Source: Streptomyces sp. GKU 895 (GTDB lineage Bacteria > Actinomycetota > Actinomycetes > Streptomycetales > Streptomycetaceae). Taken from it: 64,000 bases of DNA. Positions 11,368 through 14,377 of the stretch are shown piece by piece (the first letter of the stretch is position 1; each line of letters opens with the position of its first letter). A program made the translations under genes and the position numbers. The DNA lies in the NCBI GenBank assembly GCA_002027195.1, contig MWJO01000014.1, positions 1 to 64,000 of the forward strand. Reading direction: 5' to 3'. The notes under the pieces were generated by a model, which made no database searches, had not been told where the DNA came from, and was given only the letters and a program-made list of their open reading frames with translations.

Positions 11368-11844
11368 ATGAGAGGCAAACGAACAGCGACCGGTGCGGCA
11401 CTGGTGACCGGGGCGCTCGCGGTCGCCGGGATGGTGTGCGCGCCCGCCGCCCTGGCCGTCACCCCCGGCAGCGCGACCATCAACGCCGACTGCGGCGGCT
11501 TCGGCAGTGGTGAAGCCGCCATCACCGCCACCCAGGACGGCACCGCCGCGACCATGACGATCAACTCCTCGGCCATCACCGCACCGATCGCCCTGTCCGA
11601 GGACTCGATCACCTCGACCCTCACGCTGGTGAACGCCGCCGGCGGCACCACGTCCTTCACCGCCACCGAGAACCCGGCCATCGCCGCCGGCGATCCCGTG
11701 CAGGTCGGCCCGCTCCCGGGTGCCGTGGCCTCGGGTGACAGCCTCGAGGCCTACGGCGGCTCGCTCACGATGACGGTCTTCGGGATCACCATCACCTGCA
11801 CGGCGACCGCACCGCAGTCGCCGGGTCCGTTCGTGTTCGACTGA
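11368..11844 (+). CDS. Small secreted protein of unknown function, WxL/DUF916-like cluster
   Basis: 158 residues from ATG 11368 (SD AAGGGAGAGGG). The N-terminus is a Sec signal peptide (MRGKRTATGAALVTGALAVA ... PAALA), giving an exported mature protein of about 125 residues. The mature part is Thr/Ser/Ala-rich and beta-strand-like. It has exactly two cysteines, near its start (NADCGG) and its end (TITCTATA), probably a disulfide that closes a single beta-sandwich. The next gene begins with a domain framed in the same way, so the two may share a fold. I do not recognise a named family. Secreted, no anchor visible. Confidence 0.7.
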   Translation: MRGKRTATGAALVTGALAVAGMVCAPAALAVTPGSATINADCGGFGSGEAAITATQDGTAATMTINSSAITAPIALSEDSITSTLTLVNAAGGTTSFTATENPAIAAGDPVQVGPLPGAVASGDSLEAYGGSLTMTVFGITITCTATAPQSPGPFVFD

Positions 11845-11859
11845 GTACGAGCAAATGCC

Positions 11860-11907
11860 GGAGCTGCCGCGGTAACTGATGGTTCGTCAGATTGCTGCGG
11901 CAGCTCC
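11860..11907 (+). terminator. Hairpin between the two secreted-protein genes
   Basis: Inverted repeat with perfect 11-base arms GGAGCTGCCGC (11860-11870) and GCGGCAGCTCC (11897-11907). The loop of 26 bases holds the shared CGTCAGATT motif. It could terminate the first gene or act as a regulatory stem; no U-run follows. Confidence 0.45.
11877..11893 (+). promoter_or_regulatory. Shared CGTCAGATT motif, copy 2
   Basis: TGATGGTTCGTCAGATT lies 104 bases before the second secreted gene and matches the copy at 11232-11248 in its CGTCAGATT core. The similar spacing to the two starts suggests common control of both genes. Confidence 0.4.
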
Positions 11908-11996
11908 ATTGACTTCTCACGCAATCCCCACATCAATGCCCCCTGTCGGCGCAGAAGAGCCGCTGCGCCCGCATCCCTCGGAGGGGGCAACCAACC

Positions 11997-13307
11997 ATGA
12001 GAAACCGAAGACGCCGACTGGCGTCGCTGCTCGGGGCGGCCGCGCTCGCCGTCACCGCCGGCGGTGCGCTCGCCGGGCCGGCCGAAGCCGCGGGCAACGT
12101 CGACTTCGCCACCCACTGCATCCCGCCCGCCGTCGCCGGCATCCCGCCCATCGACGGCACCACGACCGCGCTCATCACGGTCGACAAGGCCGCTCCCAAG
12201 GTCGGCGACACCGTCACCGTGACCTACACCGTGGTCAAGCCCGCCGCCAGCAACCCCACCGCCATCAGCCTCCCGGCCGACATCATGACGCCGTCCGGCA
12301 AGGTCACCCTCGGCGGGGCGCAGACCGGGGACGTGACCGTCGTCGGGCCCAAGAAGAACGATCCGGTGGCCGGCAACGCGCCCTTCCCGTCGTTCAGCAT
12401 GACCGGCACCTTCACCGTCACCACCGCCGGAGCCATCACGCTCTCGCCCGGCGACTACAACATCCACACCAGCTACATCCTGGAGCTGGACACCCCCTGC
12501 ACCGTCATCAGCCCGCCCGCGCCCGTCTCCGAGACGATCACCGCGAGTCCGGCCACCCAGCCCAACACCCGTGCCATCACGCTCGGTTCGGCCTCCGGGA
12601 ACCCCGGTGACAGCGTCACCGTCAACGGCAGCCACTTCACGCCGGGCGCCACCGTCACCCTCGCCGGACGCTCCGGTTCCAGCCAGACCGCGGACACCGC
12701 GACCGTGACGGCGGACACCGCCGGAGCCTTCAGCGGGTCCCTGGTCGTGAACGACAAGACCACCACCGGCGTCGTCGCCTACGAGGGCGCGAGCTGGAGC
12801 GACCAGTCCGGTGCCGGGCCCGCCGCCTACACCGTCATCGACAACACACCCGTCCCCGACAACGCCCAGAAGATCAGCACCACGGTGAAGGCGGGCACCC
12901 TGTCCATGGCCCAGGCCGGGGACACCGTCTCCCTGGGCGCGGTCGACTACGGCAAGGGCGGCGCCTCGGGCGGCGACCTCAACACCGTGAGCGTCAAGGA
13001 CTTCCGCGGCGGTGTCGCGGGCTGGTCCCTGACCGGCAAGGTCACCGACTTCACCGGTCCCGGCGCCAAGATCGATGCCGGGGCGCTCAGCTGGACCCCC
13101 GCCTGCACCACCAAGGCGGGCAGCCCCAGCACCTGCCAGGCCGGTTCGTCCGGCACCGTGGGCGCGGCCGGGGCGACCCTCGCATCCGCCCCCGACGGCA
13201 CGGTCACCGGCGGTGAGTTCACCGTCGACGCCAAACTCTCCCTGAACGTACCGGCGTTCACGCCTCCGGGCACGTACTCCGGCGTTCTCACCCTCACGCT
13301 CAGCTGA
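11997..13307 (+). CDS. Secreted multidomain beta protein with WxL-like C-terminal domain
   Basis: 436 residues from ATG 11997 (SD GGAGGGGG, 9 bases). A signal peptide (MRNRRRRLASLLGAAALAVT, cleavage near AEA-A) is followed by a beta domain bounded by two cysteines (THCIPP and DTPCTV, about residues 40-170). An Ig/IPT-like module follows (NPGDSVTVNGSHFTPGATVT, about 200-275). The C-terminal domain (about 295-436) contains VKDFRGGVAGWSLTG and LSWTPA and ends PPGTYSGVLTLTLS, which resembles WxL-type cell-surface domains. The next gene encodes a DUF916-like membrane protein, the usual partner of WxL proteins in Firmicutes, so a peptidoglycan-associated surface role is inferred. Substrate or ligand unknown. 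Confidence 0.75.
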   Translation: MRNRRRRLASLLGAAALAVTAGGALAGPAEAAGNVDFATHCIPPAVAGIPPIDGTTTALITVDKAAPKVGDTVTVTYTVVKPAASNPTAISLPADIMTPSGKVTLGGAQTGDVTVVGPKKNDPVAGNAPFPSFSMTGTFTVTTAGAITLSPGDYNIHTSYILELDTPCTVISPPAPVSETITASPATQPNTRAITLGSASGNPGDSVTVNGSHFTPGATVTLAGRSGSSQTADTATVTADTAGAFSGSLVVNDKTTTGVVAYEGASWSDQSGAGPAAYTVIDNTPVPDNAQKISTTVKAGTLSMAQAGDTVSLGAVDYGKGGASGGDLNTVSVKDFRGGVAGWSLTGKVTDFTGPGAKIDAGALSWTPACTTKAGSPSTCQAGSSGTVGAAGATLASAPDGTVTGGEFTVDAKLSLNVPAFTPPGTYSGVLTLTLS

Positions 13308-13363
13308 CCGTACGGGCGTCCGCACCCGCCCGTGTCACCTCGTACAAGTGGGGGTCCGCACCC

Positions 13364-14377
13364 ATGCGCCGTATGTTCCACGCCCTGGTCCTGGGCCTTC
13401 TGTTCCTCCTCGTCACCCCCTGCGCGCACGCCGCCGACAACGGCAGCTGGTCCGTGTACCCGCTCGCCTCGAAGGTCGCCGCGCGTCCCTACTTCTATCT
13501 CTCCGCCGACCCGGGGCAGACCCTCACCGACAAGGTGGTCGTCGCCAACAAGACCGGGAAGCCGCTGACGTTCCGCCTGTACGCCGCCGACGCCTACAAC
13601 ACCGCCCGCGACGGCGGCTTCGCCGTGCGCACGGTGACGGAGAAGATGCGGGGCGTCGGGGTGTGGGCGCGGCCCGCGAGGACCCGGGTCACCGTTCCCG
13701 CGCACGGCAAGGTGACCGTGCCGTTCACGATGAAGGTGCCGGAGGGTGCCGAACCCGGTGACCACCCGGGAGCCATCGTGGCCCTCGACGAACGGATCGA
13801 CCGGGGCGACGGCTCGGTCGCGCTCGGGGTGCAGCGGGCCGTGGCCGCCCGCGTCTATCTGCGGGTCGGCGGGCCGACCCTCCCCGCGATCTCCGTGGCG
13901 GACGTCCGGGTCAGCCACCACCAGCCGCTCGTGCCGGGACTGGGCGACAGCGCGGCGACGGTCTCGTACACCCTGCGCAACACCGGCAATGTCACCCTCG
14001 ACCCGAAGGTGGAGCTGCGCGCGACGGGCCTGTTCGGCCGTACGCTGCTCGCCCGCGATCTGACGAAGGTCCCCTCCGAGCTGCTGCCCGGGCAGAGCGT
14101 CCGGCTGAGCGAGCCGTGGCGGGGCGCGCCCCAGCTGGAGTGGGGCGAGGTGACGCTCACGGCGAGCGCGAAGGACACCCGCGAGTCGGCGGGCGCCTCC
14201 TTCCTCGCGCTGCCGTGGCTGATGGCGGTGCTGCTGGCGGCGGCCGTGGCGGTGGGGGCAGTCCTGGTGATCAGAGCGCGTCGGGGCCGCGTTCGCCCGT
14301 CCGTACGCGTACGACCGTCTCGACCGGCAGTGCCCACACCTTCCCGTCCCCGATCTTCCCCGTCTGCGCGGCCTTGA
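13364..14377 (+). CDS. DUF916/WxL-binding-like membrane-anchored protein
   Basis: 337 residues from ATG 13364. After a signal peptide ([20 protein letters not shown]) the protein reads [37 protein letters not shown], the conserved opening of DUF916 domains. [19 protein letters not shown] and a second beta domain follow, then one C-terminal membrane helix ([20 protein letters not shown]) and a basic tail. This topology (outside domain, single anchor) fits a partner for the preceding WxL-like protein. The last 107 bases, coding for the Arg/Pro-rich tail after the membrane helix, run antisense into glnK; a real stop before the overlap is not present. Confidence 0.78.

Follow-up and report, generated by a model that had tools for sequence, protein, structure and literature searches.

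In the first 64,000 nucleotides of contig MWJO01000014.1 of Streptomyces sp. GKU 895 (hereafter the window), three consecutive open reading frames (ORFs) of the forward strand code for a small secreted protein (gene 1), a secreted three-domain protein (gene 2) and a DUF916-type protein with a membrane helix (gene 3). Judging from their sequences, we consider it likely that genes 2 and 3 encode the two parts of a WxL/WxLIP-type complex for surface display, a variant with a single tryptophan. The original prediction, made from the window alone, had proposed three genes in this order and a WxL–DUF916 partnership like those established for Firmicutes; the gene order is confirmed, and the partnership is borne out for genes 2 and 3, which form such a pair, kept in Streptomyces and recurring in other genera of the phylum. 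The genes and their domains are as follows (aa: amino acids; Ig: immunoglobulin).

11368–11844, + strand: gene 1, small secreted protein, 158 aa (ORF reading)
11997–13307, + strand: gene 2, secreted three-domain protein, 436 aa (ORF reading, alignment and model)
12093–12551, + strand: N-terminal domain of gene 2, residues 33–185, with invariant C41 and C168, apparently related to gene 1 through a protein family of another locus (locus B, see below)
12552–12854, + strand: middle Ig-like domain of gene 2, residues 186–286, neocarzinostatin-like fold (fold search)
12855–13304, + strand: C-terminal WxL-like domain of gene 2, residues 287–436 (Pfam, alignment)
13364–14377, + strand: gene 3, WxLIP/DUF916-type protein, 337 aa (ORF and Pfam)
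13433–13801, + strand: PGBD/DUF916 domain of gene 3, residues 24–146, with PF06030 at 40–138 (Pfam)
13802–14203, + strand: second domain of gene 3, Ig-like, at the position of the WxLIP host-binding domain (profiles)
14210–14269, + strand: transmembrane helix of gene 3, about residues 283–302, followed by an Arg-rich tail (hydropathy)

Conservation of the Gene 2–Gene 3 Pair in Streptomyces

When GTDB genome contigs were scanned with gene 3, 79 named Streptomyces loci were obtained (the best 80 of 85 were kept), in which the neighbouring genes were scored by tblastn, some of the stretches ending at contig ends. Gene 2 lies directly upstream of gene 3 and on the same strand in 78 of these 79 loci, with estimated gaps of 50–321 bp, and the sole locus without it (L106) starts inside gene 3 at a contig end; era is found downstream in 77/79. 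This order and neighbourhood, kept across the 79 loci, are more than chance would give. In a sample of 199 genomes of the genus (E-values up to 0.001), 137 have a match to gene 3, 135 to gene 2 and 107 to gene 1, paralogues and partial matches included. The original prediction had presented the three genes as one cluster: the part of it that concerns genes 2 and 3 stands, while the part that makes gene 1 a fixed member is not supported (gene 1 was not found in 25/79 loci). Moreover, its “compact streptomycete version” was an understatement, as several DUF916-type loci exist in Streptomyces.

The alignments used below hold the sequence of the window plus 51 of the 78 gene 2 orthologues, 47 of the 70 gene 3 orthologues and 28 of the 54 gene 1 orthologues. 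Nine of the 79 gene 3 loci were dropped before counting and alignment, i.e., eight with an internal stop in the extended match and L106 for its contig end.

Domain Content of Genes 2 and 3

Gene 3, announced as DUF916-like, passes the cut-off of the WxLIP_PGBD/DUF916 profile (PF06030; 35.1 vs. 27.3 bits, E-value 1.5e-8), and this profile is matched at an E-value up to 1 by all 48 aligned gene 3 sequences. At E-values up to 0.001, gene 3 is the one PF06030 match of the source genome (8.3 Mb, 190 contigs, 84.8% complete). The solved EfmWxLIP1 gives a weak sequence match with gene 3 (profile positions 23–132, E-value 0.019). The second domain matches DUF7507 in 46 of the 48 aligned sequences, and its profile matches the corresponding region of other DUF916 proteins. 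Near the C-terminus (within about 58 residues), a strongly hydrophobic stretch is present in all 70 gene 3 orthologues and is followed in all of them by at least 4 Arg/Lys within 15 residues; the same hydrophobicity test is passed by just 1/54 gene 1 and 1/78 gene 2 proteins. Export signals and the helix were judged by a simple hydropathy test, according to which the N-terminus carries a hydrophobic stretch in 54/54 gene 1, 76/78 gene 2 and 60/70 gene 3 proteins, start codons having been picked by a script, which probably leaves some gene 3 proteins truncated at the start. The N-terminal stretches of genes 1–3 and the C-terminal stretch of gene 3 agree with the secretion and the single membrane anchor that had been claimed.

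The C-terminal domain of gene 2 is matched by the WxL profile (PF13731) at an E-value up to 1 in 51 of the 52 aligned sequences (best 3.1e-5). Its first motif, D335xRGGxAGWSL345, is invariant over the 52 sequences at D335, R337, G338, G339, A341, G342, W343, S344 and L345. In the available text of PMC9772566, the first motif of WxL domains features an Asp at W-8, an Arg at W-6 and a GTxAG turn; that of gene 2 has the Asp at W-8, the Arg at W-6 and the Trp-x-Leu, with a turn that reads Gly-Gly-x-Ala-Gly vs. Gly-Thr-x-Ala-Gly. The domain also contains an invariant cysteine pair (C370, C380). Further upstream, the middle domain superposes on 1nco (Z 12.9, root-mean-square deviation (rmsd) 2.1, 88 residues, 24% identity). 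The predicted model of gene 2 has a mean predicted local distance difference test (pLDDT) score of 76.4, with about 90 for the N-terminal domain. Fold searches with gene 2 returned mostly Ig-like chains and no WxL entry among the matches listed (best 50 per list), the C-terminal part being barely covered, so that this result is no evidence against a WxL domain. Searches among the sequences of solved structures with gene 1, gene 2 and protein 3 of locus B returned nothing useful, and neither did NCBIfam for these three and gene 3.

Related Loci in the Phylum and in Streptomyces

Across 296 genomes of the phylum, PF06030 scores above its cut-off in 20 and PF13731 in four. Twelve loci were taken from other genera, ten of which have a gene 3 profile match at E < 1e-9, and the gene 2 WxL profile recognises the ORF immediately upstream in nine of these ten (L167, L169–L176); L168 has no such match upstream, yet PF13731 is above cut-off there. 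Two small WxL-type genes precede the DUF916 gene in L169 and L171, which is the Firmicutes arrangement. Among 29 short DUF916 loci (L126–L154), an extended WxL profile matches 20, but it was partly trained on nine of these positives, and three of the other 11 are orthologues of the gene 2 locus, a family that was among the training sequences, which leaves eight of the 20 as independent. An alignment of 20 WxL sequences (five gene 2, three from locus C described below, 12 from other genera) shows the first Trp in 20/20 and the second in 0/20, with the Asp and the Arg each kept in 19/20; since this set was gathered with the gene 2 profile, dual-Trp WxL domains of the phylum may have been missed.

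The part of these WxL-type relatives that precedes the WxL domain is diverse: eleven have an above-cut-off domain there and seven have none. The domains recognised are a purple acid phosphatase or metallophosphatase (L174, L231–L234), GDPD (L176), GH18 (L239), HtaA (L170, 144.6 bits), fn3 (L172, L235) and CBM96 (L169). HtaA domains bind haem, and the HtaA fusion (L170:6583-8139) has its WxL-type domain at the C-terminus and stands directly upstream of a DUF916 gene. Searches of the open-licence full-text literature for WxL together with HtaA found nothing. The four loci L231–L234 are from Streptomyces, and their phosphatase–WxL fusion is likewise upstream of a DUF916 gene. In the text of PMC12537917 that was available, metallophosphatases and DUF916 genes are located near Ang-2 genes, Ang-2 being found there only in Actinomycetota, and these neighbourhoods fit the phosphatase–WxL fusions seen here.

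Two further kinds of loci were found in Streptomyces. Locus B (22 loci picked from hit lists: L178, L179, L187–L206) combines a DUF916-type ORF (21/22) with a protein having one two-cysteine domain (21/22) and a protein having two of them (22/22). These proteins carry sortase signals: LPxTG-type in all 21 one-domain sequences (20.3 vs. 20 bits with Pfam in L178) and LAxTG in the ten aligned two-domain sequences. The source genome itself carries a locus-B-type protein, on contig C171. In locus C (L180, L181, L185, L207–L212), an ORF resembling gene 1 is divergent from a WxL-type ORF in 9/9 loci, and next to the latter comes an ORF that gives two or three neocarzinostatin-like Ig matches. One of these WxL-type ORFs, of the gene 2 type (L180:7298-9091), passes the PF13731 cut-off (26.8 vs. 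25 bits); the gene 2 WxL profile hits it at 1e-40.

The Two-Cysteine Domain and Gene 1

Gene 1 consists of a signal region and a single nine-stranded domain with invariant C42 and C144. Past residue 30, all 54 gene 1 proteins have exactly two cysteines, and Cys41 and Cys168 of the gene 2 N-terminal domain are invariant in 52/52 sequences. The predicted models of the two domains are alike, with nine strands and a short helix after strand 1; strand 1 ends at the first cysteine, and the second one is within strand 8 of 9. The gene 1 model has a mean pLDDT of 84.5 (above 90 over most of the mature part), the highest of five models that range from 36.7 to 84.5. Hence, the two-cysteine layout noticed in the original prediction is conserved and coincides in the models, and its hint at a common fold is supported by these predictions.

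A relationship between the two domains at the sequence level is supported through an intermediate, i.e., the domain family of locus B (B1). Direct comparison of the gene 1 and gene 2 profiles aligned only the signal region and gave nothing with the trimmed domains; the gene 2 N-terminal profile does not find gene 1 (best E-value 8.8), and gene 1 has no Pfam or NCBIfam match at E-values up to 10. Against B1, hhalign returns a probability of 77% for gene 1 (E-value 2e-5, 99 columns) and of 97.6% over 116 columns for the gene 2 N-terminal domain. At E < 1e-3, the B1 profile finds 29/54 gene 1 proteins, with no reversed gene 1 decoy at this level, and the gene 1 profile finds 18/21 B1 proteins. 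The B1 profile is not free of composition effects, as it also matches reversed second-domain sequences of locus B, which have repetitive linkers (2/22 below 1e-3, 11/22 below 0.1).

Among solved structures, PDB 3lso, a putative membrane anchored protein of Corynebacterium diphtheriae, may be a member of the two-cysteine family. Its N-terminal part aligns with gene 1 at Z 7.6 (rmsd 3.4, 119 residues), where values below 8 can reflect a common arrangement only, and the chain aligns with gene 2 at Z 10.2 in a loose superposition that spans several domains (rmsd 14.7, 337 residues). The sole paper that a literature search gave for 3lso deals with Cryptosporidium. Two yeast TRAPPII chains score higher than 3lso against gene 1 (Z 8.7 and 8.4), and Foldseek found no PDB match for gene 1 at an E-value of 0.001 or better. 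That the N-terminal domain of gene 2 might bind haem was considered after the HtaA–WxL fusion and the invariant His157 and Tyr160 (52/52). This idea was dropped, as HtaA is absent from the 11 families matched over the 52 gene 2 sequences and the His position is an Asn in ten aligned locus-B proteins.

In terms of gene content, gene 1 is separable from its neighbours. It is upstream of gene 2 in 54/79 loci and was not found in the other 25 (one of them, L106, cut by a contig end), 20 of which also lack a detectable gene for the PII nitrogen regulator. Conversely, among 17 gene 1 loci chosen from sites without an adjacent gene 3, ten (L182–L184, L217–L219, L222–L225) place gene 1 close to era, to the 116-aa gene that precedes it in the window (10812–11162) or to both, with no match to gene 2 or gene 3 in 12–18 kb; the other seven are located elsewhere. 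Between genes 1 and 2, folding of the gap revealed the following feature.

11860–11907, + strand: long hairpin of 22 pairs with one bulge, terminator-like, without U-tract (folding of the gene 1–2 gap)

The gap folds with a z-score of -4.68, equalled by 1/200 shuffles. Hairpins of -30 kcal/mol or lower follow gene 1 in 53/54 loci vs. 5/54 block-shuffled gaps, but also occur in 21/54 stretches internal to gene 1, a coding control that comes fairly close. The hairpin is not among the results of the terminator scan. Gene 1 is probably transcribed on its own and would be a dispensable companion of the gene 2–3 pair, not one of its necessary subunits.

Genomic Context

Downstream of the pair, the following gene faces gene 3 and overlaps its end by 107 bp (14271–14377).

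14271–14609, - strand: PII nitrogen-regulator gene, convergent, part of the context and outside the gene 2–3 pair (ORF and Pfam)

PII and ammonium transporter (Amt) genes adjoin era (14271–15928), and are found in 56/79 (PII) and 52/79 (Amt) of the named loci. Gene 3 orthologues are shorter (about 312–320 aa) in many loci without PII. On the other side, a major facilitator superfamily (MFS) transporter gene and a divergent gene for an MmyB-like (MLTR) regulator occupy 8371–10831. The 116-aa gene, provisionally called cytidine-deaminase-like, has no Pfam match. No sigma-70-type promoter was found at the locus, a result that is hardly informative in Streptomyces.

Weighing the Explanations

Several observations weigh against a WxL/WxLIP-type pair. 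Gene 2 of the window remains below the PF13731 cut-off (17.1 bits, cut-off 25, E-value 0.0057, residues 318–405), so that “WxL-like”, as originally worded, is fitting for gene 2 taken alone, and its C-terminal domain is modelled with a pLDDT of only about 70. The distal WxL motif, given as YXXX(L/I/V)TWXLXXXP in the available text of PMC5817068, reads YxxxLTLTL in gene 2, with a Leu at the Trp position in 51/52 sequences and a gap in 1/52; lacking the second Trp, the gene 2–3 pair is a variant and not a canonical WxL cluster. Among the 20 aligned WxL-type sequences, no more than 11 retain the first-motif Leu. As for gene 3, its second domain has no match to the host-binding domain (HBD/DUF3324, PF11797) among the families listed (25 of 33), a profile that is matched below cut-off in L167 and L168. 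Finally, nine of the 29 short DUF916-type loci show no WxL match within about 1.5 kb on each side, and locus C has no DUF916 match in stretches of 10–18 kb, which indicates that WxL can occur without a DUF916 partner. At face value, the low score of gene 2 and the weak matches of several Ig-like families to genes 2 and 3 might suggest ordinary Ig-like surface proteins with a superficial resemblance to WxL and DUF916. Considering the conservation of the motif, the gene order that recurs across genera and the score of gene 3 above the DUF916 cut-off, we regard this as very improbable. A role of genes 1–3 in ammonium uptake is hardly credible either: it draws on the neighbouring PII and AmtB genes and their frequency in the named loci, but genes 2 and 3 are kept in 23/79 loci where no PII was found (some of these stretches being contig-cut), PII–Amt is present without genes 2 and 3 in L183, L184, L217–L219 and L225, and the genes are convergent.

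According to one of the remaining alternatives, all three proteins would be parts of a single complex, in which gene 1 would take the place of the “small WxL” of Firmicutes clusters. The position of gene 1 upstream of gene 2 in most loci, the relatedness of gene 1 to the gene 2 N-terminal domain and the nine locus C cases, where a gene 1-like ORF is again paired, divergently, with a WxL-type ORF, argue for it. Nevertheless, we consider it unlikely, given that gene 1 was not found in 25/79 loci and exists elsewhere without genes 2 and 3, that a strong hairpin lies between it and gene 2, and that it has no WxL match; the gene 1 of the window does not even contain a Trp, and its identification as a small WxL protein was dropped for these last two reasons. 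Another possibility, to which we give a low probability, is that gene 3 acts as a general membrane-anchored Ig-type assembly factor for two-cysteine surface domains, the WxL likeness of gene 2 being secondary. This would agree with the strong conservation of the gene 2 N-terminal domain and with locus B, where the gene 3-like ORF sits between two-cysteine proteins with sortase signals and no WxL was detected. However, it is in other genera the WxL domain that is kept as partner of DUF916, with a variable N-terminal part; moreover, the match to the DUF916 profile is broken in two in 14 of the 21 gene 3-like ORFs of locus B, and the ORF of L178 has no PF06030 match at an E-value up to 1.

Proposed Function and Wider Meaning

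If genes 2 and 3 do form a two-part WxL/WxLIP-type complex, the helix of gene 3 would lie in the cytoplasmic membrane of the bacterium itself, with the basic tail inside; the occurrence in Streptomyces and the basic tail make the own membrane more likely than a host membrane. By analogy with what is predicted for Enterococcus, the DUF916 domain of gene 3 would bind the WxL domain of gene 2 by beta-strand donation. Gene 2 would thus be held at the interface of membrane and wall, its N-terminal domain being displayed on the hypha, and gene 1 would be a free secreted relative of that domain. Our best guess for the gene 2 N-terminal domain, based on the phosphatase, GDPD, GH18 or HtaA domains at the same position in related pairs, is that it captures or processes some extracellular ligand close to the membrane.

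More tentatively, and with less than even confidence, we propose that the two-cysteine domain is an undescribed actinobacterial display module that comes in three forms: free (gene 1), attached through WxL to DUF916 (gene 2) and attached by sortase next to another DUF916 protein (locus B). DUF916 would then be the common membrane platform, and the conserved pair of free-living Streptomyces would place the WxLIP helix in the own membrane and not in a host membrane (the proposal for gut bacteria). WxL/WxLIP systems are known mostly as surface complexes of gut Firmicutes linked to host contact, and a pair in a free-living and genetically tractable Streptomyces makes the membrane question testable without a host. 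The relatives that carry a phosphatase, GDPD, GH18 or HtaA domain point to a general means of keeping exoenzymes and binding domains close to the membrane.

Comparison with Known Systems

More than 91% of 938 WxL sequences are from Firmicutes according to the available text of PMC9772566, and the share outside Firmicutes means that WxL domains beyond this phylum are not new in themselves. A search of the open-licence full-text literature, judged largely by titles, yielded no description of a WxL/DUF916 pair in Streptomyces. Strand donation from DUF916 to WxL is predicted in the text of PMC10599100 that was available, where the WxLIP helix is proposed to enter host membranes.

Within Streptomyces, locus B resembles the gene 2–3 locus by its two-cysteine domain family and its gene 3-like protein, and differs in having LPxTG/LAxTG instead of WxL. 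The solved 3lso protein aligns, as described, with both gene 1 and gene 2. With the WxL–DUF916 pairs of the phylum (L167, L169–L176, L231–L242), the locus has in common a WxL-type gene that is mostly directly upstream of the DUF916-type gene, as well as the first Trp kept and the second absent in the 20 aligned sequences (which include none of L231–L242). The difference is in the N-terminal parts, those recognised in the phylum being enzymes, HtaA, fn3 or CBM96 and not the two-cysteine domain.

The closest described systems considered here are the WxL/WxLIP (DUF916–DUF3324) clusters of Enterococcus, Listeria and Lactiplantibacillus, as far as the available text of PMC10599100 and PMC9772566 goes. 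In contrast with these clusters, the Streptomyces locus has a single WxL-type protein where they have two, it lacks the second Trp, the WxL domain bears the invariant C370 and C380, the N-terminal domain is another one, the organism is a Streptomyces and not a gut Firmicute, and gene 3 is without Pfam HBD match among the families listed. Yet in both, the DUF916 domain precedes another Ig-like domain and a C-terminal helix, the neighbouring gene codes for an exported protein whose C-terminal domain is of the WxL type, and the first motif has its Asp, Arg and turn glycines.

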